NCBI RefSeq assembly: GCF_900119155.1
Contig: NZ_FPIR01000002.1
Span: 1-64,000 of the forward strand
Length of the DNA: 64,000 bases
Direction of reading: 5' to 3'
Source: Ruminococcus sp. YE71
GTDB lineage: Bacteria > Bacillota > Clostridia > Oscillospirales > Ruminococcaceae
This document shows, piece after piece, positions 8,113 through 48,310 of this stretch (position 1 is its first letter; the number at the start of each line of letters is the position of its first letter). The position numbers and the translations under genes were made by a program. The notes under the pieces are model-generated. The model searched no databases and was not told where the DNA came from. It was given only the letters and a program-made list of their open reading frames with translations.

Positions 8113-8149
8113 GCCCCATTTTCGGTGAAAAATACTCCTGTAATTAGTG

Positions 8150-8199
8150 AAAAAATCTCCTGCGCATACGGGCGTGAGCTCAGCGCAGGAGATCTTTTT
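8150..8199 (-). terminator. Terminator of the opp operon
   Basis: A ~15-bp inverted repeat, AAAATCTCCTGCGC with GCGCAGGAGATCTTTT, about 40 bases after oppA. It has T-runs on both strands, so it could also work in the other direction. Confidence 0.85.
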
Positions 8200-8235
8200 C
8201 ATATTATGGGAGAGGTATTATACGATTGTTTGAGA

Positions 8236-14711: not shown

Positions 14712-17150
14712 ATGGAAAAAACAGATCGCGAAAACATTAAAAGCGTAGTTTGCGGAACGTACAAGACGGACTTTGACCTTGACGGACGCATTATCGAATA
14801 TGATGATGGTTTCCTGAAAATGACAGGGTACGAGCGCTCTCAGCTCGACAGCGGCGAGGTGACGTTCTTTTCGCTTATCCCGCCCGAAATAAAAGAAGAT
14901 TACTTCTCCACCCTTGATGCCCTGAGACAGATCGACGGCGGCACGCTGGAACATAACATCGTGACCGCAGACGGCGGCAGGCTCGGCGTAATCTGCATCG
15001 GCAGGAACAACATCTCCGAAAACGGACATAAGTGCGCAGATATCACCATTTCCGATATCTCCGCATACAGGACTATCTCAAAACAGTACGAACGCACAAA
15101 GGCAGAGATGGTTGCCATCTCCGACAACTTCCCCGGCGGACTCGCCGTATACAGCGTCAGTCACGGGACTATCGACCTCATCAGCACCAATACCGAGTAC
15201 TACAGGCTCACGGGGCTTACCGCCGTTTCCGAACGGTCGGATCACTGCGCCCTCGTCACCGATCAGGAAGCCGAACGCTTCAAGCAGGCGTTCTTCTGCT
15301 GCGCCGAGGATAAACAGCCCTTCACCCTCGATCTGCGCTTCAAGCCCGACGGCCGCTGGGTGCGCATCACGGGCAGATACTTCGCCACCGAACCCGACGG
15401 CAGCGTGCTGCTCCACTGCTCCCTCGCCGACATCACCGATAAGGTCGTAAAGGAAAAGCTGCTGGTCAAGCAGAACCTCTGCTTCAAGATGATAAGCGAA
15501 AACACCGAAGAGACCTTCTTCGATTACGATACCGAGAACGACAGGGTCGTCACCACCTCGAAAAAGCTGCGCCTTATCAGCCGCGACGGCGTTTTCAACG
15601 GTATGCTGCGCGACCGCCTCGTGGAGAAGTACCTCCACCCCGATGACGTGGAGCTTTACTACTCCACATGGGACAAGGCTGTCCGCACCGAAGGCAAGGG
15701 CACCCTCGAATTCCGCACCCGCGCCTACGATGACGAGTACCGCTGGCACAAGATGGTCTACGTCAGCGTCTGCGGCGACGACGGAAAGGTCGCAAACGTC
15801 TACGGCATGGTCTACTCCATCGACCACCTCAAGACCATGAAGAACAAGATAGCCAACGACCGCCGCGAGATAGAACGCCTTACCAACCGCGACCGCGTCA
15901 CCGAACTTTACAACAGGACTGCTTTTAAGAGCGTTGTTGCCGAGATACTCCGCGAGAGCTTCGACCCGAATGAGTGCTTCGCCCTCGTCTACTCGGACAT
16001 CAACGACTTCTCCTACGTCAACGAAAACTATGGCTACGAAGCAGGAGACAGGATGCTGCGCAGCTTCGCCATGATAGTCTGCGGATGCAGCGCCAGCCTT
16101 GCGGCCTGCCGTATCTACTCCGATTACTTCGTGTCGCTGTTCAAGGCACATGACCGCGAACAGCTGATACAGGAAATTTCCATGCACAACAACGAGTTCT
16201 CGGCAGCGCAGAAGCTCAGATACCCCCACAGCGATTTCCAGATATCCACGGGCGTCTACTTCTTCCACTCGGCTGACGACGACGTTGCTGTCGCCATCGA
16301 CAACGCGAACCTTGCACGCCGAAGCATCAAGGGCGCCTCCGACATCCCCTGCGGTGTCTACACCGAGCGTATGCGCAAGAAGCGCAGCCACGACCAGACT
16401 ATCGCGAGCGAGATATGGACGGCTATCAAGACGGGCGCTATCGAGCTGTTCCTACAGCCGAAGTTCGACCTCGTGACGAGGAAGATGATAGGCGCCGAAG
16501 CCCTCACCCGCTGGAGAAACCCCGACGGCAGCTACAAACTGCCCTACGAGTTCATCGAGGTCCTCGAGGAGGTCGGCTATATCACCCATGTGGATATGTA
16601 TATCTACGAACAGGTGCTCAAATGCCTGAAACGCTGGAAACTCGAAGGAAAACAGCTCATCCCCATCTCGGTCAACTTCTCGCGCCGCCATAACAGCGAC
16701 CCTGCCTTCGTGACGAAGGTGACGGAACTTGCCGAGATATACGGCGTTGACAAGCGCCTTATCGAGCTTGAGATAACCGAAAGCTGCTTCACTCAGGACG
16801 TGAAGAACCTCTACACAAATATGCGCCGCCTCAGAGAACAGGGCTTCCGCATAGATATCGACGATTTCGGCACGGGCTACTCGTCCCTGAGCGTCCTCAT
16901 CGACGCGCCTGTCGATATCGTTAAGGTGGATAAGGTGTTCATCGACAACATCGGCACCAGCGAACTCTCCCGCGACTACGTTTCCCACATCTGCCGCCTC
17001 ATCCAGTCCACACGCAAGGACATAATCTTTGAAGGCGTCGAGACCGAAGAACAGGCGCGGATACTCGCATCGGGCGGCCACACAATGGCACAGGGCTGGC
17101 TCTTCGACAAAGCCATCCCCGTTGAAGAATTCGACAAAAAATATATGTGA
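14712..17150 (+). CDS. PAS-PAS-PAS-GGDEF-EAL protein, probable c-di-GMP phosphodiesterase
   Basis: 812 residues, soluble, no membrane segment. Three PAS-like sensor modules (about 15-125, 135-250, 260-380) precede a GGDEF-fold domain (about 395-540) and an EAL domain (about 555-805). The GGDEF site is replaced by SDYF at residues 470-473, so the cyclase half is probably dead, although a GTP-sensing role remains possible. The EAL half keeps GAEALTRW (Glu596), the Asn of SVNFSRR, ELEITES, IDIDDFGTGYSS, the Lys of VKVDKVF, EGVET and the Gln of AQGW, so it should hydrolyse c-di-GMP. AAAGGAGG precedes ATG; a single-gene unit with its own promoter and terminator. Confidence 0.93.
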   Translation: MEKTDRENIKSVVCGTYKTDFDLDGRIIEYDDGFLKMTGYERSQLDSGEVTFFSLIPPEIKEDYFSTLDALRQIDGGTLEHNIVTADGGRLGVICIGRNNISENGHKCADITISDISAYRTISKQYERTKAEMVAISDNFPGGLAVYSVSHGTIDLISTNTEYYRLTGLTAVSERSDHCALVTDQEAERFKQAFFCCAEDKQPFTLDLRFKPDGRWVRITGRYFATEPDGSVLLHCSLADITDKVVKEKLLVKQNLCFKMISENTEETFFDYDTENDRVVTTSKKLRLISRDGVFNGMLRDRLVEKYLHPDDVELYYSTWDKAVRTEGKGTLEFRTRAYDDEYRWHKMVYVSVCGDDGKVANVYGMVYSIDHLKTMKNKIANDRREIERLTNRDRVTELYNRTAFKSVVAEILRESFDPNECFALVYSDINDFSYVNENYGYEAGDRMLRSFAMIVCGCSASLAACRIYSDYFVSLFKAHDREQLIQEISMHNNEFSAAQKLRYPHSDFQISTGVYFFHSADDDVAVAIDNANLARRSIKGASDIPCGVYTERMRKKRSHDQTIASEIWTAIKTGAIELFLQPKFDLVTRKMIGAEALTRWRNPDGSYKLPYEFIEVLEEVGYITHVDMYIYEQVLKCLKRWKLEGKQLIPISVNFSRRHNSDPAFVTKVTELAEIYGVDKRLIELEITESCFTQDVKNLYTNMRRLREQGFRIDIDDFGTGYSSLSVLIDAPVDIVKVDKVFIDNIGTSELSRDYVSHICRLIQSTRKDIIFEGVETEEQARILASGGHTMAQGWLFDKAIPVEEFDKKYM

Positions 17151-17412: not shown

Positions 17413-17446
17413 AGAAGGACAATAAACTTTGACGGGAGTGTTCTAA

Positions 17447-18106
17447 ATGACCTACAAGGAAGAGTTCATAAAGTTCATGGCAGACAGCGGAGTGCTGACT
17501 TTCGGCGAGTTCACGCTGAAGAGCGGAAGAAAGGCGCCGTACTTCATCAACACGGGCAACTACAAGACAGGCGCACAGCTGGCGCGTCTGGGCGAGTTCT
17601 ATGCTCAGTGCATCGAGGAGAACGGAGTTGACGCGGACGTATTCTTCGGCCCTGCGTACAAGGGTATCCCCCTGTCGGTGTCGGCGGCAGTTGCGTACTA
17701 CAATAAGTTCGGCAAGGACGCGGCTTACTGTTTCGACCGCAAGGAGGTCAAGGATCACGGCGAGGGCGGAATGTTCGTCGGCAGAAAGCTCGCGGACGGC
17801 GATAAGGTAGTCATCATCGAGGACGTTATGACCTCGGGCAAGGCTCTGCGCGAAGTTATGCCCAAGCTGACCGAAGCCGCAAAGGTGAACGTTACAGGCA
17901 TGGTCATCACCGTTGACCGCATGGAGAAGGCGCTCGACAGCGACCTCTCCGCAGTTCAGGACGCCTACAAGACCTTCGGCGTGAAGGTCTACTCCATCGT
18001 TACCATCGACGACATTATCGAGGCGATCAGAAACGGCGTGGTCGAGGGCAAAGAATACCTCGACGCAATGCTCGCATACCGTGAGCAGTACGGCGTGAAG
18101 TACTAA
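17447..18106 (+). CDS. pyrE: Orotate phosphoribosyltransferase
   Basis: 219 residues. Joins orotate and PRPP to give OMP in pyrimidine synthesis. The N-terminal FTLKSGRKAPYFINTG, the FGPAYKGIPLS loop, and the PRPP-binding motif VVIIEDVMTSGKA are all intact. RBS GGGAGTG sits 8 bases before ATG. It is transcribed alone, far from pyrKD. An inverted repeat from the intergenic repeat family begins 6 bases after the stop and probably ends the transcript. Confidence 0.97.
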   Translation: MTYKEEFIKFMADSGVLTFGEFTLKSGRKAPYFINTGNYKTGAQLARLGEFYAQCIEENGVDADVFFGPAYKGIPLSVSAAVAYYNKFGKDAAYCFDRKEVKDHGEGGMFVGRKLADGDKVVIIEDVMTSGKALREVMPKLTEAAKVNVTGMVITVDRMEKALDSDLSAVQDAYKTFGVKVYSIVTIDDIIEAIRNGVVEGKEYLDAMLAYREQYGVKY

Positions 18107-18253
18107 GTGCGTTTACCCCTTGCCGTGCGAAGCTAAGGCGGCCACCATTCCAAAGACTTTTAATACTCTTTGGCAAGGGGTAAATGTTGCACGGTGGTAA
18201 CAAATCACATATGCTTTGTAATAATTTTGTAATCCTCTGTAATGGTATTGTTG
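18107..18253. repeat. Copy 3 of the repeat family, hairpin form
   Basis: A perfect 13-bp inverted repeat, TTTACCCCTTGCC (18112-18124) with GGCAAGGGGTAAA (18172-18184), encloses the family phrases CGTGCGAAGCTAAGGCGG and CCAAAGACTTTTAATA. It directly follows the pyrE stop and may act as a terminator. Confidence 0.7.
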
Positions 18254-18282
18254 TTGTAAAAGACCACAATATATTGTATAAT
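18254..18282 (+). promoter_or_regulatory. Promoter of a short orphan transcript
   Basis: TTGTAA-N17-TATAAT. Predicted start about 18289. No gene of normal size follows. Confidence 0.65.
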
Positions 18283-18288
18283 TATATT

Positions 18289-18412
18289 GTAGAACAGAGG
18301 AAAGAAAAAGAATGAAAAACTAAGTGATTTATACTCTTAGCTCGTTTCATCCTCTCCAAAATTTTTTACACAAGTCAGAAGGTAGTCTCTCCAAGGCTAC
18401 CTTTCTTTTTTG
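18289..18412 (+). ncRNA. Candidate small RNA of about 124 bases
   Basis: A good promoter, then a purine-rich stretch with an RBS-like AGAGGAAAG and a three-codon ORF (ATG AAA AAC TAA, 18312-18323), then a Rho-independent terminator at 18379-18412. Between them, TTTCATCCTCTCC (18345-18357) is complementary to GGAGAGGATGAAA, that is, to an RBS plus start codon. The terminator loop repeats TCTCTCC. Such C/U-rich loops are typical of Gram-positive regulatory RNAs that block ribosome binding. It could also be a remnant leader whose gene was lost. No family was recognised. Confidence 0.5.
18379..18412 (+). terminator. Terminator of the candidate small RNA
   Basis: Stem AAGGTAGTC with GGCTACCTT (one G-T pair), loop TCTCCAA, then TCTTTTTT. 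Confidence 0.8.
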
Positions 18413-25460: not shown

Positions 25461-25700
25461 GGTTCTCCCCCCAGCCCCCCTTTCCAAAGACTTTTAATAT
25501 GTCGTCATTTGGATTTGGTTTGGAAGATAGACTGTCACCATTTCAAAAATAAAAGGCGGGGAAAAATCCCCCACCCTAAATAAGATGTTATCTCTTGAAA
25601 CGGTGATAGTCTATCTTCCAAACCCCAACAAACTTCCGACATAATAAAAGTTTTAGGAAGGGGGTCTGGGGGAGAACCCTTTTTCAAAAGGGTTTCCCCC
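25461..25700. repeat. Copy 5, the fullest copy of the palindromic repeat element
   Basis: A ~240-bp near-palindrome. The left arm (GGTTCTCCCCCC, then CCTTTCCAAAGACTTTTAATA, then GGTTTGGAAGATAGACTGTC) is matched by the reverse complement of the right arm at roughly 80-85% by eye over about 90 bases. The centre is about 25556-25590. The right end carries the 33-base hairpin 25668-25700. No ORF of note inside, so it looks like a non-autonomous, MITE-like or REP-like element. It ends 27 bases from the stop of the GGDEF gene. Confidence 0.8.
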
Positions 25701-25727: not shown

Positions 25728-28067
25728 TCACATCTCCGCCTTTACGATAGTTTTTTTCTTGCGTTTTTGTTCGTACAGGAGGGAGTCCGCGTGGGAGAGG
25801 AGTTCGCCTATTTCCACTGTGTCGGTGCAGTTGAAGGGGTAGATACCGACGCTGGTGTGGATTATGTACGGTTTGTCGGCGCACATTTCCTCGTTGTACC
25901 TTGCGGAGATAGTCTCGATATGTTCGCGGATGTTAGGCAGTTCCACGGGTTTAGCGAAGAAAGTGCAGACCACGAACTCGTCGCCGCCTATCCTGCCCAC
26001 TATCTCGTCCTTGAACGACCTTTTAAGGATCTCCGCCGCGGAGCGAATAGCGAAGTCGCCTTCTTCGTGACCGAACCTGTCGTTGATTATTTTCAGGCTG
26101 TCGAGGTCGGCGAATATCATCACGGCGTAGGGGTGGTCGCCCACGAGCCATTCATCGTTGAGCTTGTGTCTCAGTTCCTCGAAGAAGCCGCGTCTGTTGA
26201 AGCAGCCCGTCAGCTCGTCGGTCTTTGAGATGTCGCTCAGCAGCTGATTGTTCTCGCGTATCTCGATAAGGCTCTGCTGGAGCATCTTCTGCGTGCGAGC
26301 CTGAGCCTTCATCATGGTGATTATCCTGAGCGCGGCGCAGAGCTGCACCGTCACCGAAGTGATATAGTTGAAATACTCGTGCTCTATCTCGCACATGAGC
26401 AGACCGTAGTGTTCCTCGTTGGAGAACAGCGGCGTAACTATCATAGTATACCGCCTGTCGTTGGGCAGATACTTGTTCGAGAAGAGTTCCTCGGGTGCGA
26501 CAGCCTGTTCTTCGGGCGGCAGCAGCACCGAGTCGCCAAGATTGTGGTAGCTTTTCAGGTACAGCTTTTCGGGCAGCCTGAAAGTGTCGTTCTTTCTGTT
26601 GACGATAGCGGGCTCGTAGCTGAACAGATAGCTGGAGGTCATGTGAACTCTAAGCAGCTTATCCACAACGCTCCTGTAAGCCTCGTCGTCGTAAGCCTCG
26701 AACACCAGCATATCCCTCGTTATCGAGTTGGTCAGCCAGGTCATGAAGTAGTTGTCTTCGAGCTTGTTCTTGCAGTAAGCGGCGTTGCGCTCGGAGATGA
26801 CCTTGTATATCTGGATGAACATCCTGTTTATCACGAGCTGTTCATCGCGGTCGAGGTTCACCGAGGAATATTTCCCGTGGATGTACTCTATCACCGCGAA
26901 CAGGTCATCTATCGACACGAACTTGAAGAACCCGTCCCCCATCAGCGTGTACAGGTCGGAAACGATGTCCTCTCTGAACTTCTTGCTTCTCAGCTCCGTC
27001 TTGTTCATGTAGTCGTCTATCATGAACAGGAACTTGCGGAACTGTTCCTTTAGCCTGTGGGTCTCGTCGCTGGAGCGGTATCTGTCCATCAGGAATTCGC
27101 AGACCTCATCCGCAAACTCCTCGCGGCTGCCCGTGCTGCTGTCGCGGAAAGAAAGCGAACCGAGCCGAGCGTTGCGGGTGCATCCGCAGGAATTGCGCAC
27201 CACCATCGAAGACTGTATGGTGTCGTTCTCCAGCTTGCCGTTGTTGATGTAGTTGAGCGCTTCCAGCACCGCGTTGTATCCGAGCTCTGCGGCGTCGCTC
27301 TTGACGGTGGTCAGATGCGGCATCATCTCTTCGCAGATGGTGTCGTTGTCGAAGCCTGTCACTGCGATGTCGATGCCGGGTCTCAGCCCTCTCTCTTCCA
27401 GTACCTGATACGCCGCCAGCGCCATCTGGTCGTTGGCGCATACGATAGCGTCAAGGTCGGGGCAGCGGTCGAGCAGCTCGTTCACCTGCGGCACCACATA
27501 CTTCGAGAAGTTGCCGAACACCACCCGCTCGGGCAGGAACTCCACCCCGTGCTTTTTCAGCGTGTCCTTGAACACTTCAAGACGCTCGTTGGCGTCGTCG
27601 CTGGTGTCGGGACCGCTTACGAAACCGAGTTTTCGGCAGCCGTGAGCGTCGATAAGATGCTCGATGACCTGCACGAGTCCCGTCTTGTTGTCCACGCTTA
27701 TGCAGGGATAACCGTCCACCTGCGAAGTGATGGTGATGACGGGTATGCCGTCGTACCGTTTCAGGAACTCCGCCCTGCGCTGCTTGTTCAGGTGACTGCC
27801 GATGGTGCCGATAAGGACGAGCAGAACGTCGAACTTGTTGCGCACGGGCAGGTCGAACAGCGTGTTGTACTGATATTCAAATTCGGTTCGCAGCTTATCG
27901 GCGTAGACCCCGTCGATATAGCGCCCCGGGAAAATAACGAGGTCAACATCCGACTGTGCGGCAGCTATCATAGCACCTTCGCAAACCGCGTCGTCGAATT
28001 CGTCCTCAAGGTGGCTTATAAGCAGCCCCACACGGGGTCTGCGCCTCGGATTTTTATTGTTTGTCAT
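25728..28067 (-). CDS. LacI-type sugar-sensor / GGDEF diguanylate cyclase
   Basis: 779 residues, soluble, with no signal peptide or membrane helix. Residues 12-290 are a LacI/GalR-type periplasmic-binding fold (RVGLLISHLEDEFDDAVCEG, ISVDNKTGLVQVIEHLI, AIVCANDQMALAAYQVL, VTGFDNDTICEEMMPHLTTV) without the usual N-terminal helix-turn-helix. A Cys pair (NSCGC) ends this part. A long helical linker leads to a C-terminal GGDEF domain (about 600-775) with TGCFNRRGF and an intact GGDEF at 694-698. No RxxD inhibition site is seen. It should make c-di-GMP, or a related dinucleotide, in response to a cytoplasmic ligand, probably a sugar. It starts 25 bases after the EAL gene. Confidence 0.93.
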   Translation of the reverse strand: MTNNKNPRRRPRVGLLISHLEDEFDDAVCEGAMIAAAQSDVDLVIFPGRYIDGVYADKLRTEFEYQYNTLFDLPVRNKFDVLLVLIGTIGSHLNKQRRAEFLKRYDGIPVITITSQVDGYPCISVDNKTGLVQVIEHLIDAHGCRKLGFVSGPDTSDDANERLEVFKDTLKKHGVEFLPERVVFGNFSKYVVPQVNELLDRCPDLDAIVCANDQMALAAYQVLEERGLRPGIDIAVTGFDNDTICEEMMPHLTTVKSDAAELGYNAVLEALNYINNGKLENDTIQSSMVVRNSCGCTRNARLGSLSFRDSSTGSREEFADEVCEFLMDRYRSSDETHRLKEQFRKFLFMIDDYMNKTELRSKKFREDIVSDLYTLMGDGFFKFVSIDDLFAVIEYIHGKYSSVNLDRDEQLVINRMFIQIYKVISERNAAYCKNKLEDNYFMTWLTNSITRDMLVFEAYDDEAYRSVVDKLLRVHMTSSYLFSYEPAIVNRKNDTFRLPEKLYLKSYHNLGDSVLLPPEEQAVAPEELFSNKYLPNDRRYTMIVTPLFSNEEHYGLLMCEIEHEYFNYITSVTVQLCAALRIITMMKAQARTQKMLQQSLIEIRENNQLLSDISKTDELTGCFNRRGFFEELRHKLNDEWLVGDHPYAVMIFADLDSLKIINDRFGHEEGDFAIRSAAEILKRSFKDEIVGRIGGDEFVVCTFFAKPVELPNIREHIETISARYNEEMCADKPYIIHTSVGIYPFNCTDTVEIGELLSHADSLLYEQKRKKKTIVKAEM

Positions 28068-28092
28068 GTGTCTTGCTCCCCGATCATTTGTA

Positions 28093-30687
28093 TCACTCGT
28101 TCATCCTTATGTCCTTGATAATGCGGTCTAAGCTGACGTTGCCGTGTGCGCTGCCGATGTCGAAGCCGTTTCCCGTGCGGAACGCCAGATGAATCTCGCT
28201 CTCGCTCACGTTTATGTCGCCGCCGCCGTTCCTGTCGCCGATGCCCGTGACCTCGCCGCCCTCGGAGTAGAGGGTGATCTTCGTATGTGCGAAGCTGCAA
28301 TTCGCCTCGGCGCCGTTCGAGCCGATGTTCAGTATAGCCTTGCCCCTCATCACGGTGTCTATCTCCAGCGAGCGCAGATCAATGTCCGCCCTTCCGCCGC
28401 TGAGCGAGCCGATGCCGCAAAGATTGCTGCCCGCGCTCTCACAGTTCACCGAAGCGTTCGCGATGCCTATGACAGCATTTCCCGAGATGGAACCGATGCA
28501 GGTGCTTGAAGCCGCCGCGATGTTCACCCCGAAGGAACAGCTGTCGATAAACAGGTCAGCGTCGCCGCCGATAGAGCCGATGCCCGTGCAGATGCCGCCC
28601 GAACAGTTCACGTCTATGCAGCCGCTGCCTATCCGCACGAAGGCTTTCTTTCCGCCGCCGATGCCGATGCAGCGCTCACCGTTTGTGCTTATGGTAAGGT
28701 CGATGGTGTCGATGTATATCTCGCCTGCGCTCTTTTCCGAGTCGTTGCCGATGCCGAAGCAGTCGTGCGCCTCAGGGTCGATGCACAGCGACCCCGAACC
28801 ACTCAGCGTCAGCACCGTCCCCTCGGGAACGAGTATGCCGCCGAGCCTCAGCAGGTTGTTGCCCTCGCATATGAGGGTGAGCCTGCTGCCCTCGCTCAGT
28901 TCGATGGCAGGCACATCCGAATCCGATTCTATTGAGACCTCGTGCAGCGTGAGCGTACACTCCGCGTTCTCGCGTATGGTTATCGGCATCTTGAACAGCT
29001 GGTCGGTCACACCCGTGAGCGTCACCGAGCCGCTGCCGATGGATATCTCGGTGTATTTCCCGAGAGCCAGTTCCATCAGCGACAGTTTTTCGCCGTCCTC
29101 GACCTTTCGTGTCTTCTGTATCTTTCCTGCCGCCTCAAGATTGATGCGGACGATGTCGTCCTTCACGCTCTCCGCGACCTCGTTGACGAACACGGGCTTC
29201 GGGCGCGATACCCAGTAGCCCTGCAACAAATCGATGCCGAGGAAGATCACGGCACGCACTTCCTCAAAGGTCTCGACCCCCTCGGCGAGTGCCAGATATC
29301 CGCAGGAGTGGCAGAAATCTATTATTCCCTTAACGAGCGTCTGAACGCTCGGCTTTCTGTCTATGTTTTCGATAAGCGCCCTGTCTATCTTAACGTACTC
29401 GGGGGCGTAGCGCACAAGGTTCGTGCTGTTCGCGTAGCCCGTCCCGAAGTCGTCGATAGCCATCTGCATATTCCGTTCCTTTATCCTCGAACGGATGGTC
29501 GCCAGCTGGTTGTCGTCTATCTCGTTGTGCTCGGTGAGCTCGATGACGGTCTTTTCGAGCAGCTCGCCGTACTTTGCGGCTATCTTCAGGTAGTCCTCAT
29601 CATTGAGTATATGCGAAGTCACCGAATTGATGAACAGCTTTCTCCCCTCGAAGAAGCCCTGATTCTCGCTGAGCGCCTGCAAGGTGTTGTTCAGCGTCGC
29701 CAGCTCGATGTCGTAGAGCCTGTCGTAGCGCTCAGCCAGCTCCAGCACCCTCAGCGGCCCGAAACCGATGGTCGGGTCAGTCCTCATCAGCGCCTCGTAA
29801 GCGAATATCTCGCCCGTCACGGCGTTGACTATCGGCTGGAAGTGGTACGTGAACAGATCCTGATCCAGCAGGCGTGAGAAGCGCCGCAGGTCGCCGTAGT
29901 CCGACTTCTGACGTTCGTACTCCTCGGGGTCGAACAGTTCGAGACTGCCCTTGCCCTTTGCCGCAGCGTCGAACAGCGCAAAGGACGCGCTGTGCATACG
30001 GTGAACAGCAGCCCCCTCGCCGCAGCAGATACCCGCGCTGAAAGTCATGTGGTGGTTCTCGCTTATGACACTGCCTGTCCTGTCAGTAAGAGCGCACTTT
30101 TCCACCGCCGTCCTGAGCCTTTCGGCTTCCGCGATGGGGTCGCCCTCAAAGGACGGGATGTACACCCAGTAGTCGTAATTCGAGTGCGAAGCTATCATGG
30201 CATCCGGGGGCAGACAGGCGAAAAGCGCGTTGAGAGCGCTGTAAACGCAGTAGAAAAGCTCCCTCGGGTTCGTGTCAGCACCGTCGAGATGCAGGATCAT
30301 TACCAGCGAACCGCCTTTTGAAGCGTCGATGGCACGCACTATCTCCGCCTGAGTGGACAGCAGGAAATTTCCCTGATCCAGCTCGCTGTGAGAAGCGTTG
30401 AGCCATACCGCGCCTGCCGTGAGGTCATCCTCATCCACGTCGCAGTAATCGAGCATGATGGGCGATCTGCTCTCGGCGTATTCCTCGGTGCGTTCGAGCG
30501 CCAGAGAAAGCTCGTCATAGGTCGGGACATCGCTGAAACCGAGGATGCGCATAGCATTTTTGTGTATGCAGACCTCATGCGTATCGTGTGTCATGAGAAA
30601 AATGCCCATGTCGAACGAAGCGTCCGAGAGCTTCTCCCATACTTTTCCAAAGTATTTTCTGCGCAGGTCGTCAGTTATTCTGCTCAT
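28093..30687 (-). CDS. Degenerate GGDEF / EAL protein with a C-terminal beta-solenoid
   Basis: 864 residues, no signal peptide or membrane segment. Residues ~100-265 look like a GGDEF fold with SNYDYW where the active site should be. Residues ~280-525 are an EAL domain with every key residue: YEALMRTD (Glu298), the Asn of LFINS, ELTEHN, AIDDFGTGYAN, YVKIDRALI, AEGVET, LLQGYW. From ~550 to the end are at least nine short strand-turn units with GIG or IGS motifs (CFGIGND, CIGIGGG, CTGIGSIGG, CIGSISG, CGIGSLSGG, VTGIGDRNGG), typical of right-handed beta-solenoids that are normally exported and bind carbohydrate. Predicted role: c-di-GMP hydrolysis under control of a ligand-binding or oligomerising solenoid. 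First gene of the operon with the sensor cyclase. Confidence 0.92.
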   Translation of the reverse strand: MSRITDDLRRKYFGKVWEKLSDASFDMGIFLMTHDTHEVCIHKNAMRILGFSDVPTYDELSLALERTEEYAESRSPIMLDYCDVDEDDLTAGAVWLNASHSELDQGNFLLSTQAEIVRAIDASKGGSLVMILHLDGADTNPRELFYCVYSALNALFACLPPDAMIASHSNYDYWVYIPSFEGDPIAEAERLRTAVEKCALTDRTGSVISENHHMTFSAGICCGEGAAVHRMHSASFALFDAAAKGKGSLELFDPEEYERQKSDYGDLRRFSRLLDQDLFTYHFQPIVNAVTGEIFAYEALMRTDPTIGFGPLRVLELAERYDRLYDIELATLNNTLQALSENQGFFEGRKLFINSVTSHILNDEDYLKIAAKYGELLEKTVIELTEHNEIDDNQLATIRSRIKERNMQMAIDDFGTGYANSTNLVRYAPEYVKIDRALIENIDRKPSVQTLVKGIIDFCHSCGYLALAEGVETFEEVRAVIFLGIDLLQGYWVSRPKPVFVNEVAESVKDDIVRINLEAAGKIQKTRKVEDGEKLSLMELALGKYTEISIGSGSVTLTGVTDQLFKMPITIRENAECTLTLHEVSIESDSDVPAIELSEGSRLTLICEGNNLLRLGGILVPEGTVLTLSGSGSLCIDPEAHDCFGIGNDSEKSAGEIYIDTIDLTISTNGERCIGIGGGKKAFVRIGSGCIDVNCSGGICTGIGSIGGDADLFIDSCSFGVNIAAASSTCIGSISGNAVIGIANASVNCESAGSNLCGIGSLSGGRADIDLRSLEIDTVMRGKAILNIGSNGAEANCSFAHTKITLYSEGGEVTGIGDRNGGGDINVSESEIHLAFRTGNGFDIGSAHGNVSLDRIIKDIRMNE

Positions 30688-30732
30688 AGTCAGTCCCTCA
30701 TTTCAATAGGCGATGGCTGGTGTTATACATTC

Positions 30733-30761
30733 ATTATAACAAAAAACAGAGTAAAAGTCAA
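30733..30761 (-). promoter_or_regulatory. Promoter of the EAL-solenoid / sensor-GGDEF operon
   Basis: TTGACT-N17-TATAAT, about 45 bases before the EAL gene. Confidence 0.88.
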
Positions 30762-30844: not shown

Positions 30845-30878
30845 CAAAAACGCCGAAGGCTCATTGAGCCCCCGGCGG
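30845..30878 (-). terminator. Terminator of ilvE
   Basis: CGCCG...CGGCG hairpin with an inner CTCA/TGAG stem, followed by a T-run on the minus strand, 18 bases after the stop. Confidence 0.85.
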
Positions 30879-30895
30879 AGTTGTATCTGTACAGA

Positions 30896-31963
30896 TCAGA
30901 TCTTAACGATCCAGTTGTACTCGTCAGCAATCTTGCCCCACTGGATGCCTGTCATGGTGTCATACAGCATCTGCGAAACGGGTCCGATCTTGTTGTCGTT
31001 GATGGTCATGATCTTGTCGCCCCACTTGAGGTGTCCTACAGGCGAGATAACAGCAGCAGTACCCGTACCGAATACCTCGTTCAGCTTGCCCTCGTCGTAA
31101 GCCTTAGCAACCTCATCGATGGTGATGCGTCTCTCGGAGACCTTCATGCCCTTCTTGCGGCAGATCTCAAGTGCCGACTTTCTGGTGATGCCGGGCAGTA
31201 CCGAACCTGTCAGCTCGGGAGTTACTACCTCGCCGTCGATAACGAACATGATGTTCATGGAGCCGACTTCCTCGATGTACTTCTGCTCAACGCCGTCCAG
31301 CCAGAGAACCTGCTCGTAGTCCTGATCGTGAGCTTCCTGCTGACCCTTCAGAGAGATAGCGTAGTTAGCCGCAGTCTTGGCAAAGCCTGTACCGCCGCGA
31401 ACCGCTCTTACATACTGCTTCTCAACATAGATCTTAACAGGGTTGAGACCTGTGGAGTAGTAAGCACCCGAGGGTGAGAGGATGATGATGAACATATAGT
31501 GATCCGCAGGGCGAACGCCTACATACGGGTCGGTAGCGATGATGAACGGTCTGATGTAGAGCGAAGCACCTTCGGTATGAGGAACCCACTCCTCCTCCAT
31601 CTTAACGAGGGTCTTGAGAGCGTAGAGACAGTCCTCGATGTTCAGCTCGGGGATGACCATACGGTCAGCCGAAACGTTCATTCTCTTGAAGTTCTCGTCG
31701 GGACGGAACAGCTGAACGCTTCCGTCAGCAGTACGGTAAGCCTTGAGACCCTCAAAGATCTCCTGACCGTAGTGCAGGCACATAGCCGCAGGAGAGAGCG
31801 AGATCTCGCCGTAGGGAACGATGCGTGCGTCGTGCCAGCCGAGACCGGTATCGTAGTTCATGATGAACATATGATCGGTAAAGATGTGACCAAAGCCGAG
31901 TTTAGTCTCGTCGGTGGGTTTTGCCTTAGGTGTTGCAGTACGTTCGATCCTGATGTCTAACAT
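30896..31963 (-). CDS. ilvE: Branched-chain amino acid aminotransferase
   Basis: 355 residues, the longer (eukaryote/Bacillus-like) BCAT type. Fold-type IV PLP enzyme that interconverts Leu, Ile, Val and their 2-oxo acids. Visible motifs: LHYGQEIFEGLKAYR, FRPDENFKRMN, the PLP-lysine region GGTGFAKTAANYA, EQVLWLDG and the cofactor-binding EVFGTGTAAVISPVG. AGAAGGAC precedes ATG. Single-gene unit with its own promoter and terminator. Confidence 0.96.
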   Translation of the reverse strand: MLDIRIERTATPKAKPTDETKLGFGHIFTDHMFIMNYDTGLGWHDARIVPYGEISLSPAAMCLHYGQEIFEGLKAYRTADGSVQLFRPDENFKRMNVSADRMVIPELNIEDCLYALKTLVKMEEEWVPHTEGASLYIRPFIIATDPYVGVRPADHYMFIIILSPSGAYYSTGLNPVKIYVEKQYVRAVRGGTGFAKTAANYAISLKGQQEAHDQDYEQVLWLDGVEQKYIEEVGSMNIMFVIDGEVVTPELTGSVLPGITRKSALEICRKKGMKVSERRITIDEVAKAYDEGKLNEVFGTGTAAVISPVGHLKWGDKIMTINDNKIGPVSQMLYDTMTGIQWGKIADEYNWIVKI

Positions 31964-32019
31964 ACAAAAGTCCTTCTTTCTGAAATCATTATAGTACAGC
32001 AGTAAAGCTATTAAAGTCT

Positions 32020-32048
32020 ATTATACACCCTTTGAAAGAAAATTTCAA
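32020..32048 (-). promoter_or_regulatory. Promoter of ilvE
   Basis: TTGAAA-N17-TATAAT, about 55 bases before the ATG. The short leader has no obvious T-box. Confidence 0.85.
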
Positions 32049-32204
32049 TAGCGTACACAAAATTTTAATAATTTTTTTGCAAGATTTTCCTCCCGAACTT
32101 GCAAAAACCCGCACTTACCCCGAAAAAATCCAGTCAGAAAACCAACGTCTGCGTAAAATGTCAAATATCATATTGCATTTTTGTGTAAAATGCGGCATGA
32201 ACAT

Positions 32205-32372: not shown

Positions 32373-34454
32373 TTATTCAGTCTTAGCCGAAGCGATAACT
32401 GCGGTTACGAGGTTGGCGGGGAGCTGGTCGTAGCGTGCCACTTCGAGGTCGAAGCTGCCCTGACCCTGGGTCATCTGACGGAGAGTGAGGGTGAAGTCGT
32501 TCATCTCCGCGATGGGCACCTCAGCGGTAACGTCGGTCATGCCCTTCTCGGTCTCGGAGGGGATCATGCCCATAACTCTGCCGCGGCGCTTGTTTATCTC
32601 GCCGATAACGTCGCCCGTCTTGTCGTCGGGAACCGATACAGTCAGATTGCCAACAGGCTCAAGAAGCATCGGCTCAGCCTTCGGGATACCGTCCTTGAAC
32701 GCGATGGAAGCCGCGGTCTTGAACGCCATTTCCGACGAGTCAACATCGTGATACGAACCGTCCACGAGCACAGCCTTTACGCCTACAACAGGATAGCCTG
32801 CCAGGACACCGTGCTGAACGCACTCCTGCAAGCCCTTTTCAACAGCAGGGAAGAAGTTCTTCGGAACAGCGCCGCCGACAACTCTGGTCTCGAATATCAG
32901 TTCGTCGGTGATGCAGGGCTCGAACTCGATCCATACGTCGCCGTACTGACCGTGACCGCCCGACTGCTTCTTGTGCTTGCCCTGTACCTTGACCTTCTTG
33001 CGGATGGTCTCCTTGTATGCGATCTTCGGAACGCTGGTCACAACGTCAACGCCGAAGTCTCTCTTCAGCTTTCCGATGACCGAATCAAGATGCAGACCGC
33101 CCAGCGTCGAAAGTATCATCTCAAGAGTGCCGGGATCCTGCTCGTATCTGAGCGACATATCCTCTTCAAGCACTCTTGCGATCGCGCCCGAGATCTTGCT
33201 CTCGTCCTTCTGAGCCGCGGCTCTTACAGCCACTCTGTAGGTCGGCTTCGGGAAGGTCGGTCTCTCGAAGGAAACGACTCTCGAAGCGTCGCAGAGGGTG
33301 TCGCCCGTGTTAGCCGACAGCTTTACAGCCGCGCAGATGTCGCCGCATCCCACTTCGTTCGTCTCGATCTGCTTCTTGCCCACGAGGAAGTACAGCTTGC
33401 CGATCTTCTCGGAAGCGCCCGTAGCCGCATTCACGACCTCGGTATTGCTCTTGAGCACGCCCGACTGCACCCTGATGTAGCTCATCTTGCCAACGAAGGG
33501 GTCGGCAACGGTCTTGAACACGCTTGCCGCCAGAGGAGCGTCGGGTTCGCAGGCGATCTCAACGATCTCGCCCTTGCCGTCTGTAGCGGGCTTGTCTTCC
33601 TTCTCGGCAGGCGCAGGCAGAAGAAGAGTGATCTCCTTCATGAGCATATCTATGCCTTCGAGAGTAGCCGCCGCCACGCAGGTAACAGGTGTGATGACGC
33701 CCTGATTCAGACCCTTGTGGATGCCGTCAACCAGCTCCTTCTGGGTGAAGCTCTCGCCCGAGAAGAACTTCTCCATCAGCTCTTCGTCGCTCTCGGCAAC
33801 AGCCTCGGAGATAGCCTCGATAAGACCGTCGATACGGTACTCCATCTTGTCGCTGACCTCAGCTGTGGGCATATCGGTCTCGACAGCCTTGCCGTCCTCG
33901 TACTTGTAAGCCTTCATCTCGATGAGGTTCACATACGAAACGATCTTGTGGTTCGCAACAACAGGGAACACAACAGGGCACACAGTAGGACCGAACTCGG
34001 TCTTGAGCTGTGTCAGCACGTTGTTGAAGTTCGCGTTCTCGTCATCGAGCTTTGTAACAACGAACATGGTGGGCTTGCCCATCTTCTTCGCGTAGTTGTA
34101 AGCCTTGTGAGTGCCGACCTTGACGCCCGACTTGCCCGAAACGGTTATCATGCAGCAGCCGCAGGCGGAGATACCCTCGACCATCGACTGTTCGTAGTCG
34201 ATCAGACCCGGTGTGTCAAGCAGATTTACTTTCAGATCGTCCTTCTCGTAGCAGGAAAGGGAAGTATATACCGAGCACTTGCGCGCGATCTCTTCTGCGG
34301 TGTAGTCCGAAACGGTATTGCCGTCGAGTACCTTGCCGAAGCGGTCGGTCACACCTGCGCTGTAAAGCAGAGCCTCGGTGAGTGTGGTCTTGCCCGAGCC
34401 TGCGTGACCCGCAATTGCAATATTTTTGATCTTGGTGTTGTCGTAGCTTTTCAA
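32373..34454 (-). CDS. Elongation factor G-like GTPase (EF-G paralogue)
   Basis: 693 residues. P-loop GHAGSGKTT, G3 DTPGLIDYE and G4 TKLDDE in the N-terminal GTPase domain, then EF-G domains II-V including GQYGDVWIEFEP and the C-terminal RRGRVMGM. The divergent P-loop and G4 (TKLD rather than NKxD) place it with the EF-G-like/FusA2 group rather than the housekeeping EF-G, which normally lies in the rps/tuf operon. Such paralogues may aid ribosome recycling or act under stress. It begins with TTG, preceded by AAGGAG at 9 bases. Monocistronic. Confidence 0.92.
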   Translation of the reverse strand: MKSYDNTKIKNIAIAGHAGSGKTTLTEALLYSAGVTDRFGKVLDGNTVSDYTAEEIARKCSVYTSLSCYEKDDLKVNLLDTPGLIDYEQSMVEGISACGCCMITVSGKSGVKVGTHKAYNYAKKMGKPTMFVVTKLDDENANFNNVLTQLKTEFGPTVCPVVFPVVANHKIVSYVNLIEMKAYKYEDGKAVETDMPTAEVSDKMEYRIDGLIEAISEAVAESDEELMEKFFSGESFTQKELVDGIHKGLNQGVITPVTCVAAATLEGIDMLMKEITLLLPAPAEKEDKPATDGKGEIVEIACEPDAPLAASVFKTVADPFVGKMSYIRVQSGVLKSNTEVVNAATGASEKIGKLYFLVGKKQIETNEVGCGDICAAVKLSANTGDTLCDASRVVSFERPTFPKPTYRVAVRAAAQKDESKISGAIARVLEEDMSLRYEQDPGTLEMILSTLGGLHLDSVIGKLKRDFGVDVVTSVPKIAYKETIRKKVKVQGKHKKQSGGHGQYGDVWIEFEPCITDELIFETRVVGGAVPKNFFPAVEKGLQECVQHGVLAGYPVVGVKAVLVDGSYHDVDSSEMAFKTAASIAFKDGIPKAEPMLLEPVGNLTVSVPDDKTGDVIGEINKRRGRVMGMIPSETEKGMTDVTAEVPIAEMNDFTLTLRQMTQGQGSFDLEVARYDQLPANLVTAVIASAKTE

Positions 34455-37708: not shown

Positions 37709-39919
37709 TCAGAACAGGTTGTTTCGGTAGCTGTTCGGGGTGACGCCCGTCGTCTGTCGGAACTGCCGCATGAAATATTTCTCGTCCGTGTAGCCGCATT
37801 TGAACGAGACCGCCGAGATACCGATGTTGGTGGTCAGCAGGAGATATTTCGCCATGGCGATGCGGCTCATTATCAGATCCTGATGGAAGCTGATCCCGAA
37901 AATGTCCTTGTACGTGGCGCGGAAATGCCCGTAGCTCAGGTGGAAATCGCGGCAGGTCATCTGCGCGTCCCACTCCTTCCCGGGGTCGCGGTACATGGAG
38001 TTCCTGACTTGCAGATAATCCTTATAGTATGCGTGGTGCCGCTCTTCCGAGAGCTGTTTGATCTTCATGTTGATGTCCTCGCTCAGGGCGGCGATGCACT
38101 CGTTGATGTTCCTGTCCGCCGACACCTCGCCCCGTGCCATGAAGAGCGTGTCGAGCCCCCTCTCCTGAATGTAGAGCGGCGAATGTGAGATGATGATCTC
38201 CAGCTTATCCATGATGAGCGGCACCTTCTCCTCCGTGAACTTGCTTGAAGCCGCCACGATGTACTGCTTGTCCGACAGCTTTCCGCAGAAACCGCCGATG
38301 CTCCCTGCGATTTGGTTCAGGCATTCCGCGATCTCCATATCCAGCCTTACCGAGAGATTCTTCTTGTCGATGCGGCTGTCGTCCGAGTAGATGCCCGTGC
38401 GTATCATTATAACAGGTATCTTTCCGTCCTCGCCGAGCTTTTTGCAGGCGTTGACAAGCTCGCTGGTGAAGCCCTGCTTATTGTAGAGCCCCGTAGCCGT
38501 GTCGTGGAACTCCGACAGATTGCTGCACTCAAGGAGCGTGTTGATGTCGTTTTTCATGCGGAGCACCTGCAAGGCGTTGACGGTTATCTTCAGCCATTCT
38601 ATCATGACCGAATCGTAGGTGTCGGGAGTGGTGTACTGGAAAATGAAGTGCCCGAACTCCTTGCCCTCCGAAAACAGCGGCGTGAAAAACAGGAACTTCT
38701 TGTCCCCCGCCCCGGGAAGCTCGGCAGGGAAGAGCTTCCCCCTTGTAAAGAACGCAGGCTCGTCGGAGCCCTTTTCGGGGCTGATAACACGGTAGCAGAT
38801 CATCGGCTCGTTGTTCGAGAACTCGTTCACCGAAGACTTCTGTGAGCGTGTACACCAGTCCTCGTGCAGACAGAGGTATATCCCCGAAACGTTCCTTATC
38901 AGGTATGAGAATTCCTGTAACGTGTGTATGTAGTCGGAGATGGAACGGCTGGTGACAGACTGCTGTTCAAAATTACCGCAGAAGTTCATATCGTTATACG
39001 CCTTCGTCTGCTGTATCTCCAGCAGTTCCTCGCGGAGATATTTTTTCTCCACCCCGCACGAGCAGGTGTCGCCCGTTATCATGTACCCCGAAGTGTCGAT
39101 ATCCTGCATCGGCGCCCCCGTGAGCTTCGAGTAGATCAGCGCCACTGCCTTTGCCCCGATAGCCATGCGGTTGCGCTGGTAGGTGGTCAGTATGGGGGAG
39201 TGGTATATCCTCTCGCCGATATGTTCATATCCGATGACGGTGAGGTCGTCGGGCGGAGTCAGATCGTTGTTGAACAGCTTGTCCAGAAGCCCGAAAGCCA
39301 TGTAGTCGTTGGCGCATATCACAGCCTGCGGAAGTCTGCGCTTTCCGCTGATGTAATCCTCCGCCAGCTTCTCACCCGAGTTGTTCCAGAAGTTTCCGAA
39401 GATCACGTTCTTCTCCCCGAAGGGCAGCCCCCTTTCCTCCATGATCTCCCTGACCCCGTCCACTCGCAGATGGGAAGTCTCGTAGGCTTCGTAGCCCGTT
39501 ATGATGTCGATATCCCTGATGCCGTGTACGTCGGTGAGGTGACGGGCGATGCACCTGAAATCCCTCTTCACATCCGTGTTGATGCAGGTGAAGCCCTCAT
39601 CCTTCGCGTCGGCGACGACGATGGGAATGTTCAGCTCCCTGATATGGTCGTGGATGCTGTCGATAAGGTCGGGGTAGATGAGCGACTCGTAAGCAAGTAT
39701 CAGCCCGTCAAGACGCTCGGAATGTACCAGCTCGTAGATCTTGTTCTCCACCTCAACGTCTGCAAAATACTCCGCGAAGTTGTAGACGTTTGAAAATACA
39801 GCGATGTCAATGCCCAGCTCATCGGCTTTTGAAAGTATGCCTTTGAGCAGCTGCCGCTGTTCACTCTGGGACGCTCGTGCGGTTATCACTCCGATGAGCG
39901 GACGATGGTCAGTATTCAT
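37709..39919 (-). CDS. LacI-type sensor / degenerate GGDEF / AraC-type transcription regulator
   Basis: 736 residues from ATG at 39919 (GGAG 7 bases upstream). Residues ~8-290 form a LacI-type sugar-sensor fold (LIGVITARASQSEQRQLLKG, AVICANDYMAFGLLDKLF, VIGYEHIGERIYHSPILTTY) ending in a Cys pair (TCSCG), as in the sensor-GGDEF protein at 25728-28067. Residues ~450-600 keep the start of a GGDEF domain (DTATGLYNKQGF), but the active site has become LSDKQY near residue 545. Residues ~635-736 are an AraC/XylS domain with two helix-turn-helices (LSYGHFRATYKDIFGISFHQ; GISAVSFKCGYTDEKYFMRQ). It is divergent from the xylanase gene and probably controls it. Confidence 0.93.
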   Translation of the reverse strand: MNTDHRPLIGVITARASQSEQRQLLKGILSKADELGIDIAVFSNVYNFAEYFADVEVENKIYELVHSERLDGLILAYESLIYPDLIDSIHDHIRELNIPIVVADAKDEGFTCINTDVKRDFRCIARHLTDVHGIRDIDIITGYEAYETSHLRVDGVREIMEERGLPFGEKNVIFGNFWNNSGEKLAEDYISGKRRLPQAVICANDYMAFGLLDKLFNNDLTPPDDLTVIGYEHIGERIYHSPILTTYQRNRMAIGAKAVALIYSKLTGAPMQDIDTSGYMITGDTCSCGVEKKYLREELLEIQQTKAYNDMNFCGNFEQQSVTSRSISDYIHTLQEFSYLIRNVSGIYLCLHEDWCTRSQKSSVNEFSNNEPMICYRVISPEKGSDEPAFFTRGKLFPAELPGAGDKKFLFFTPLFSEGKEFGHFIFQYTTPDTYDSVMIEWLKITVNALQVLRMKNDINTLLECSNLSEFHDTATGLYNKQGFTSELVNACKKLGEDGKIPVIMIRTGIYSDDSRIDKKNLSVRLDMEIAECLNQIAGSIGGFCGKLSDKQYIVAASSKFTEEKVPLIMDKLEIIISHSPLYIQERGLDTLFMARGEVSADRNINECIAALSEDINMKIKQLSEERHHAYYKDYLQVRNSMYRDPGKEWDAQMTCRDFHLSYGHFRATYKDIFGISFHQDLIMSRIAMAKYLLLTTNIGISAVSFKCGYTDEKYFMRQFRQTTGVTPNSYRNNLF

Positions 39920-40077
39920 GATTAACTCCTTCAATAGCTGATCGGTTCACTGTGGTAGCATAACACCGTCAGAAAGTACACTTTGCGATCAAATAAAACG
40001 GCTCCGAATGCCGAATAGGCACGAGAGATCAAAATTACCGATGGTTATGTCACTTTCAAATCGATCCCCCAATTAAT

Positions 40078-40272: not shown

Positions 40273-43200
40273 ATGAAAAAGCACAAGAAATTGATGGCAT
40301 TTCTGGTAGCGCTCAGCTGCTTCGGAAGTATTGCAACAGCATTCCCGCAGTTTACCGCACCTGTATATGCCCAGGAGGTCGTTTACGACAGCTTCGAGCT
40401 CAACTATGACGGCTGGCACGGCACGGATACCTCTATCGAACTTACTGCTGATGACAACGGCGGTTTCGGCGATACCAGAGGTATGAAGGTAACAGGTCGT
40501 ACTTCCACAAAGGACGGCGCTGCTTCTTCCAAGGGACTTTACCTCTTCGGCGGCGTAAAGTACAACTACTCGATGCAGGTATTCAGCGAGAAGGACGCTA
40601 AGTTCAAGCTCACCCTGAAGTACATCGACGAAGAGACCAAGGAAGAGACCATCGTTACCCTTTCCGAAAAGAAGGTAAAGGGCGGAAAGTGGACAGAGCT
40701 CTCCGCAGACTACAAGGCACCCGAAGGTACCTATGAGTATGAGCTGACACTTACCAACGACCTGACCGACGACTTCGTTTTCGATGATGTCAGAGTAACT
40801 ACCGACCGCTCTACAGCAGTTGCAGACGCTGCTTCCACTAACTTAGGTCTGAAGGATGAGTTTGCAAACTACTTCCGTGTAGGTAACATCTTCAACGGCG
40901 GTACCATCAACAACTCCGCTATCCAGGGCATCATTCTCAAGGATCACAACGCAGTTGAGTGCGAGAATGAGACAAAGCCTTACGCTACCATCGTTCAGAA
41001 TGGTTCTACTGATACCAACGTCAAGGTAACTCTCAACAGCTGTGCAGCTATACTTGACTTCTGTGCAAAGAACAATATCGCTTTCCGCGGTCATACATTC
41101 GTATGGCACAGCCAGACCCCTGAGTGGTTCTTCAAGCAGGGCTTCAACAATAACAACGGATATGTAAATTCGTCTGTTATGGATCAGCGTATGGAAAGCT
41201 ACATCAAGAATATGTTCAATGCTTACGCTACTCAGTATCCGTCTGTAAACCTTTATGCTTATGACGTGTGCAACGAGGTCATCTACGATGGAACAGCCAA
41301 GACCGGCGGTCTCAGACCTACAAACAATACTGAGGGTCGTGACGGTTCTTCCGCATGGGTAAGAGTTTACGGCAACAACTCCTTCGTTGAAAAGGCATTC
41401 ACCTACGCAAAAAGATATGCTCCTAAGGGATGCAAGCTCTACTACAACGATTACAACGAGTTTGCATACGATAAGAAAGAGTGCATAAAGAATACTATCC
41501 TCATCCCGCTCCATAATAAGGGACTTCTCGATGGTATGGGTATGCAGTCTCATATCGACTGCAGCACCGGTCAGTGGGATTGGGGCAACACCCAGTCTTA
41601 CCTCGATGCAATGGATGATTACCTCAGCCTCGGCATCGACGTTCAGGTAACTGAGCTTGATATCTCCCGTGACGGCGGAAAATACACCGACCAGCAGCAG
41701 GCTGAGAAGTATAAGGCTATATTCAAGCACTGCAAGGAAGTCAACGAGAGCGGCAAGTACAAGGGCAAGGTAACTCTTGTTCAGGTATGGGGTCCTAACG
41801 ACAATAACTCGTGGGTAGGCACGAACAGTGCCGGTAAGCCCAACTATCCGCTTCTTTATGATGGAAACAATCAGCCTAAGACCGCATATAACTATATAAC
41901 CTCGATCATTGATCCTACGCTCTGGGGCAACGGCTCGGATGTCAACCCCGGCGGAAATGAGGATGAGCCCAACGACTTCGGCTGGTACTTCAACTACGGA
42001 TTTGAGAACGGTACTGATGTATTCTCCGGCAGAGGTGCTGCAAAGATTTCTTCGAGTACTGATACCGCATTCGTCGGCAGCCACTCGCTTTATGTAACCA
42101 ACAGAGAGAGCGCATGGAACGGTGCTTTGATGAAGCTTAGCAGCACATTCAAGGCTGGACAGGAGTACAGCTTCAGCGCTATCGTATCCTACCTCGACGG
42201 CCCCGAGACCGATACCTTCCACTTCACTCTCCAGTATGACGGTTCCGACGGCAAGACCTATTACGACAAGATCGACACCAAGGTGGTACCGAGAGGCTCC
42301 TGGGTACAGCTTGCAAACATGAACTACAAGCTCCCTGAGGGTGCGACCAATATGCAGATCTACGTTGAGACTGACAGCTCCACTACCTCGTTCTACATCG
42401 ACGAAGTTATCGGCGCTGTAGCAGGCACAGGCATCCTCGGACCTGACCCTGTTGAGATCCCCGTAGGCGACGATGTTCTGCTGGGCGATGTTGACGGCGA
42501 CGGCCAGATCACTATCAGCGACGCTGTTCTCGCTAAGAAGAGCATCAGCGGCGGCCTCGATGACGCAAGAGCCAAGAAGGCAGCTGACGTTGACAGAAGC
42601 GGCAAGATCGACAACGATGACGTTGATCTTATCACCAAGTATGTCGTAAACGCGATCACCGAATTCCCCGTAGCTGCAAAGCAGATCGATGTATCGGCTA
42701 TGGAAGCTAAATTCAAGAACGTAAAGAACGGCATCACCTATAAGTATGACGGCGAGAACAATCCTCTCTCGACTGTACGTTTCGGTGCAGACCCGGGCTG
42801 GATGGTCTACGACGGCAGACTCTACATCTACACCACCAACGACGCTTTCGAGACCAGAAACGACGGTCAGTATCAGGTAAACACCTACAACTCGGGCACC
42901 ATCAACTGCCTCTCTACCGCAGATATGGTAAACTGGACAGACCACGGTGCTATCCCGATAGCTAAGCAGAACGGCAGAACTCAGAACGGCTGCTGCTCGT
43001 GGGCAAGCGCTGCATGGGCTCCCGATGCCTGCTGGAAGATGATAAACGGCAAGCCTAAGTTCTTCCTCTACTTCGCAAACAGCGGCGGCGGAATCGGCGT
43101 TGTAACCGCTGACAGCCCCACAGGTCCCTGGACTGATCCGCTGGGTCATGCACTTCTTTCCCACAACTCTCCCAACTGCTCGAACGTTGAATGGATGTTC

Positions 43201-48293: not shown

Positions 48294-48310
48294 GACCTGG
48301 AGGTGTACAT

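Follow-up and report, generated by a model that had tools for sequence, protein, structure and literature searches.

Enzymes that turn over the messenger cyclic di-GMP (c-di-GMP) carry accessory domains that set both the signal that is read and the place at which the messenger is synthesised or destroyed, and most of the accessory domains described so far precede the catalytic domain. In PA0861 (5xgd), MorA (4rnh) and DosP (9bkv) the domain order is like that of the N-terminal 500 residues of the protein treated here, an EAL protein of 864 residues encoded at 28093..30687 on the minus strand of a 64,000-nucleotide stretch of Ruminococcus sp. YE71 (contig NZ_FPIR01000002.1, positions 1 to 64,000), which we call the window. 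A Foldseek search with the full predicted model likewise placed three PAS-GGDEF-EAL structures, 5xgd, 5xge and 5xgb, at its head. The window protein departs from PA0861, MorA and DosP in having lost the GGDEF signature and in carrying a 330-residue beta-solenoid after the EAL domain; to our knowledge, none of the three has a beta-solenoid in that position. The enzyme part is ordinary, and what is new is the C-terminal solenoid, which should lie in the cytosol, together with the paired cyclase that bears a sugar-binding fold.

The EAL domain (29200..29883, minus strand; residues 269-496) is the sole domain of the 864-residue protein above the Pfam cut-off (E 1.2e-45; 156 bits against 31.3), and all 15 NCBIfam matches lie under their curated cut-offs. 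Ten residues which we take to be the catalytic ones, E298, N354, E383, E386, D412, D413, K433, E469, E472 and Q489, are invariant in 20 aligned proteins including the window's, E298 and N354 being scored in 19 of 19 since one partial sequence lacks that region. Because all of them are kept in these 20 proteins, the set for which we claim intact EAL residues, hydrolysis of c-di-GMP is expected, and the protein is a predicted c-di-GMP phosphodiesterase (PDE). The full set of EAL motifs claimed in the original prediction, an earlier reading of the bare sequence of the window, is thus in place. The front of the protein had been overlooked. Residues 111-260 (29908..30357, minus) lie in a protein without any Pfam GGDEF match, and the GG[DE]EF signature, replaced here by SNYDY, is missing from all 19 aligned proteins that cover the region, the window protein among them; on the fold match of the model to GGDEF-EAL proteins we propose a degenerate GGDEF domain that would be regulatory and non-synthesising. 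Residues 1-110 (30358..30687, minus), without a Pfam match, are tentatively PAS-like, judging from the secondary structure of the AlphaFold2 (AF2) model and from Foldseek.

The solenoid had been placed from residue 540 onwards; it is there, and starts nearer residue 531 (28096..29097, minus; residues 531-864), with coils of about 28 residues and GIG(S/G/N/D) turns. No family in the Pfam scan convincingly spans residues 500-864. Residues 536-864 hold 12 triplets of the form [IVL]G[SGND], a motif picked after the sequence had been inspected, where 3000 shuffles gave 4.8 +/- 2.0 and four of them reached 12. Late copies are spaced 28, 29, 28 and 28 residues apart, and self-similarity over lags 10-79 peaks at 57 (z 5.4) and 28 (z 4.6); a chance repeat was rejected by this shuffle and periodicity analysis. 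Modelled alone from 21 sequences, the solenoid reached a mean predicted local distance difference test score (pLDDT) of 94.1 and a predicted template modelling score (pTM) of 0.90, with nearly all strands and short helices at the start; in the full chain, modelled from 20 sequences, the mean pLDDT was 85.7 overall and about 95 in the solenoid. The repeats that had been read as a glycine-rich beta-solenoid are modelled as one, with no PAS/GAF-like or unrelated fold in their place. From its homologues we infer that it is right-handed.

A simple hydrophobicity scan in 19-residue windows, rather than a dedicated predictor, found no window with a mean above 1.32 in the protein. Over the 20 aligned proteins the maximum was 1.82, in the GGDEF-like part of one member (L068), and the N-terminal 60 residues did not exceed 1.01. 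These values are low: as had been claimed, the scan gives neither a signal peptide nor an evident membrane helix, and on the same grounds a secreted or membrane protein was rejected for the window protein. Turnover of c-di-GMP takes place in the cytosol, and no membrane-crossing segment follows the EAL domain; the solenoid should therefore lie in the cytosol as well.

The relatives of the solenoid are of another kind. Its strongest homology is to secreted glycine-rich beta-helices (PF18889, Beta_helix_3), with which it has GIGG and VP.GSSLTI.G.GSL-like motifs in common and from which the window protein differs in having no N-terminal hydrophobic segment. Aligned by hhalign with the beta-helix copies of two such proteins, L114 and L115, which are PF18889 matches and are also retrieved by hmmsearch with the solenoid profile, it scored 98.4% (E 6.7e-15, 155 columns); with three PF14262 proteins of its own genome, three open reading frames (ORFs) that hold five PF14262 matches, it scored 94.4% (E 9.4e-8, 84 columns), both E-values being from single comparisons of small alignments (six and three sequences, respectively). 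The homologous coils are the first ones, and the later coils are matched in neither comparison. The best sequence match of the solenoid profile in the PDB was 4peu/4phb (E 0.011), labelled an uncharacterized protein, which we identify as Cthe_2159, a beta-helix of PF14262 whose kinship to the solenoid would be remote. These profile comparisons make secreted glycine-rich beta-helices homologues of the solenoid and Cthe_2159 a probable, more remote one, in keeping with the suspected kinship to secreted solenoids, among them a carbohydrate-binding kind. The layout is not shared: the three PF14262 proteins have signal-peptide-like starts, judged by eye, and no EAL domain, unlike the EAL-solenoid protein. 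L114 (G271:C2, ORF 1763-9184, minus; 2474 residues, six stretches matched by the solenoid profile) also differs from it in its signal-peptide-like, secreted-type start and lack of EAL, and the sequence of L115 stops at a contig end. Neither PF14262 nor PF18889 matched any of 26 solenoids at E up to 1; what did appear were ten scattered families, the best at E 0.036 and each in at most two members, and assignment of the solenoid to a known Pfam or NCBIfam domain was rejected, as the scattered Pfam matches had E 0.036 or worse.

A sensory role could be read into this kinship, with the solenoid as an intracellular ligand sensor that has kept a saccharide groove and lets an imported oligosaccharide or another metabolite switch the EAL domain. 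We regard this, the chief rival to the tethering role favoured below, as possible and rather unlikely. The profile homology to secreted glycine-rich beta-helices and PF14262 proteins speaks for such a sensor, as do the sugar-binding fold of the partner cyclase and the GH10-GH43 dockerin protein in the window, whereas the homology to PF14262 is limited to 84 columns in the first coils and several forms of the protein already carry recognisable sensor modules at the N-terminus. Structure comparison cuts both ways: in a Foldseek search of the solenoid against the PDB, the best 50 of 274 rows are beta-helices or solenoids of a related kind, with many polysaccharide lyases, polygalacturonases, epimerases and adhesins among them, yet no match lay under 1e-3 (best E 3.3e-3), TM was at most 0.36 among these 50 rows and 4peu was not one of them. 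Glycan platforms are aromatic; the solenoids are unlike these, since 15 of 20 members have no tryptophan and the domain is strongly acidic, with a net charge of -7 to -24 and 6-17 cysteines. The sensor finds a precedent in Cthe_2159 proteins, which are described in PMC6712302 as beta-helices that bind cellulose and acid sugars (pectic acid, polygalacturonate) and to which PMC9210967 remotely links a cluster of beta-solenoid adhesins.

What had been presented as a single odd protein turned out to belong to a recurrent family. Among 100 related genomes, the solenoid search matched 19, namely the own genome, all 12 congeners and, in the rest of the family, 6 of 48 genomes; it matched none of 39 genomes from other families of the order. 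EAL-solenoid proteins occur in all 12 congeners and the window layout in 11 of them, one copy being truncated where its contig stops; the remaining genome, G004 (56% complete), yielded only a form in which a periplasmic-binding-protein (PBP) fold precedes EAL and solenoid. In 391 genomes of the class the profile matched 18, of which 13 have EAL-solenoid proteins, two (G271, G419) have solenoid-related proteins without EAL, and three (G109, G151, G341) gave profile matches at E 5e-6, 2e-10 and 2e-4 for which no ORF came up at E 0.01. The three matches in 398 genomes of the phylum are all EAL-solenoid proteins and all come from the same class. A scan of named genome records gave 20 loci, each with EAL and solenoid: 18 chains of 863-901 residues, one (L061) cut by a contig end and one (L073) of 1236 residues. 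These records are all clostridial, 13 being labelled Ruminococcus and the other seven Clostridia (4), Oscillospiraceae, Lachnospiraceae or Christensenellaceae. When three ORF sets were merged, identical sequences removed and the window protein excluded, 48 of the 50 distinct solenoid proteins (two of the 50 being partial) had the EAL domain immediately before the solenoid; the two without EAL are L114 and L115, both remote. Between the two profile matches lie 11-15 residues in 46 of the 48 and 24-25 in the remaining two. By sequence comparison, the EAL-solenoid arrangement is a real, recurrent clostridial layout and not a one-off.

Nothing was found that speaks for an artefact of assembly or contamination, or for a chance fusion of two genes; the probability of this is practically negligible and it was ruled out, as many independent genomes repeat the layout, among them 11 of 12 congeners and Ruminococcus bicirculans 80/3 (L066), whose chromosome is complete. 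A passive C-terminal solenoid, handed on by descent and without a function of its own, would fit the lower conservation of this part (mean pairwise identity 0.37 against 0.61 for EAL over 171 pairs) and is nonetheless quite improbable, given that it follows EAL in 48 distinct proteins, that the ratio of non-synonymous to synonymous change against the nearest relative is about 0.14 (dN 0.27, dS 1.9, the latter near saturation), and that 20 aligned proteins keep the glycine turns, E809 and N863 without exception and D818 nearly without.

In front of EAL the proteins vary. The window type has the PAS-like part and degenerate GGDEF; with Pfam run on nine proteins and membrane helices read by eye, nothing was recognised in the short front part of L043, L045 has a PBP fold, and L073 and L122 have PBP and GGDEF in a single chain with EAL and solenoid. 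Two apparent membrane helices precede the GGDEF part in L047, L048, L128 and L129, the GGDEF match being present in L047 and below the cut-off in L128. Given these varied parts, EAL and solenoid are, as far as such comparison goes, the constant unit and the front module is exchangeable. Because the recognisable sensors are N-terminal and exchanged while EAL and solenoid stay constant, the solenoid would not be the main signal input, and the near-fixed spacing under exchangeable fronts points to a role on the output side, as a tether, docking arm or oligomerisation element.

The gene next to that of the PDE gives this reading its second half. A putative diguanylate cyclase of 779 residues (25728..28067, minus) is encoded 25 bp downstream on the same strand and is the probable operon partner. 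It combines a LacI-type sugar-binding fold (Peripla_BP_3, E 6.4e-24) with a GGDEF domain (E 1.3e-26) whose signature is intact, and its Pfam hits include no helix-turn-helix family. Of the 20 named loci, 17 allow that side to be judged (L056, L057 and L072 end too soon), and in 9 of these the next gene downstream is an orthologue of 60-80% identity. All nine (L055, L058-L064 and L066) are labelled Ruminococcus, a label also borne by L065, which lacks the orthologue; eight of the gaps are below 90 bp, and that of L060, a locus with an uncertain start codon, measures about 310 bp. In L073 the parts are joined in one chain that resembles the window cyclase over its PBP (26%, E 1e-17) and its GGDEF (28%, E 7e-12), with the GGDEF motif intact, while L122 is similar over PBP and a stretch into GGDEF and has apparently lost the motif. 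Among four other PBP parts compared with that of the cyclase, the nearest is from L045, the PBP-EAL-solenoid form (26.6%, E 5e-34).

Upstream of the EAL-solenoid gene is a promoter-like site, TTGACT-17-TATAAT (30733..30761, minus), with 11 of 12 consensus positions. The stretch has five such sites against 4.0 +/- 2.3 in shuffles, so the argument lies in its position and not in the number. A terminator-like hairpin with an 11-bp stem and a T-rich tail (25553..25577, minus) follows the cyclase gene and probably ends a two-gene unit; another, with a 12-bp stem and a T tail (30851..30877, minus), lies between the unit and the upstream aminotransferase gene. The stretch holds 13 terminator-like sites against 6.4 +/- 2.4 in shuffles. 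The conserved neighbour, the fusions and the promoter- and terminator-like sites together support a two-gene unit that would act on c-di-GMP from both sides, and the genes are probably co-transcribed.

From these pieces a mechanism can be put together, which is our leading reading at about even odds. The protein would be a cytosolic PDE that forms, with a sugar-responsive cyclase, a local make-and-break pair, its solenoid serving as a tether or oligomerisation element. In the PDE chain, a PAS-like part would lead through a non-synthesising GGDEF domain to a catalytically complete EAL domain and on to the beta-helix at near-fixed spacing. The partner cyclase would sense a small solute, probably a sugar, through its N-terminal LacI-type fold, and the two proteins, perhaps physically paired, would make and break c-di-GMP locally as the sugar supply of a fibre-degrading gut bacterium changes. 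The solenoid would be a rigid arm for interaction or oligomerisation, by which the EAL domain is positioned or dimerised, with contacts made end-to-end, through a side or on a partner. A possible parallel lies in the bactofilins, filament-forming right-handed beta-helices of about 110 residues that, according to PMC12448750, polymerise within the cytosol; by analogy, polymerisation might be how the solenoid works. We claim likeness and not homology here, and no bactofilin family is among the Pfam hits of the window protein or of the 26 solenoids at E up to 1.

Several points tell against the tethered make-and-break pair. The glycan binding of the studied relative Cthe_2159 favours a ligand for the solenoid, and the sugar ascribed to the cyclase is deduced solely from the fold of its PBP part. 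The gene pair is missing from 8 of the 17 judgeable loci, including L073 with both parts in one chain, and a weak terminator-like site (28556-28571) is present within the EAL-solenoid gene, in the same orientation as the gene. The full-chain AF2 model (pTM 0.47) leaves the relative placement of the domains uncertain, and a conserved partner surface on the solenoid is not evident from the alignment, given its lower conservation than EAL. A narrower possibility is that the solenoid recruits the PDE to one specific protein, such as the PBP-GGDEF partner or a c-di-GMP-controlled machine. The conserved pair and the single-chain forms would suit it, while the loci without the pair, one of them fused, do not, and conserved neighbours were sought solely by comparison with the ORFs of the window; we think it doubtful, noting that it overlaps with the tethering role and that the two are not mutually exclusive.

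A conserved intracellular beta-solenoid at the C-terminus would add a new type of control arm to the c-di-GMP enzymes. Through the solenoid PDE and the cyclase with its sugar-binding fold, sugars from fibre could be connected to c-di-GMP in a concrete way, and the protein would exemplify the reuse in the cytosol of a fold type known from secreted carbohydrate-binding proteins. A tentative and bolder version, which we would not expect to hold in full, is that gut Clostridia took a secreted glycan-binding beta-helix type into the cytosol and turned it into the fixed output arm of their PDEs, polymerising or binding imported plant-fibre oligosaccharides; the cells would then break down c-di-GMP on a scaffold and, together with the sugar-sensing cyclase of the same operon, link sugars from the diet directly to the amount of the messenger.

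The claim that no enzyme with this layout has been described stands for the literature covered: no description was found in open-access full texts, a search from which subscription papers and preprints are mostly missing and which did not extend to database annotations by architecture. In the sensory-domain review PMC8846402, Periplas_BP is listed among putative sensory domains of c-di-GMP proteins, with its role unknown; such a LacI-type module is present in the neighbouring cyclase gene and in several EAL-solenoid proteins. The main text of that paper does not contain 'solenoid', and none of its three 'helix' passages concerns a beta-helix. The pertinent passages of PMC11264596 and PMC3584217 name EAL proteins and beta-helix proteins separately, not as one protein, and PMC9540692 concerns dCache receptors and has no bearing on the EAL-solenoid layout.

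The whole genome (G000, 4.07 Mb) has 46 GGDEF and 16 EAL matches, among them a second EAL-solenoid gene (on C24) that lies 36 bp behind a gene for a 1149-residue protein with two GGDEF matches and one EAL match, a neighbourhood that also speaks for the make-and-break reading. PilZ gave no match in these 4.07 Mb, in a search that found it in 5 of 14 control genomes; a search for the c-di-GMP-I riboswitch gave no match either, and since the controls were likewise matchless it is uninformative. In the window itself there are three EAL genes. Apart from the EAL-solenoid gene, a PAS-PAS-GGDEF-EAL protein is encoded at 14712-17150 (plus), and a second PDE/cyclase pair lies at 46761-48293 and 48290-49375 (plus), where the gene for a 510-residue protein, with EAL at its N-terminus and then about 275 residues without a Pfam match, overlaps a GGDEF gene by 4 bp.

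Further along the window, a gene for a PBP-AraC regulator (37709-39934, minus) adjoins one for a GH10-CBM-dockerin-GH43-CBM6 protein (40273-44163, plus), and the PBP part of the regulator is 23% identical to that of the cyclase (E 6e-24). The GH10-CBM-dockerin neighbourhood suggests a fibrolytic, cellulosome-type lifestyle and a shared kind of sensor. Compared with the nearest congener (L029 in G012), the EAL-solenoid/cyclase pair (25739-30704) is 73% identical at the DNA level, against 87% for the aminotransferase gene (30895-32104) and 84% for a phosphoribosyltransferase-type gene (17435-18411), and the pair therefore changes faster than these two other stretches. Adjoining the aminotransferase gene is a gene for an EF-G-like GTPase of 693 residues with all EF-G domains (32373-34454, minus).

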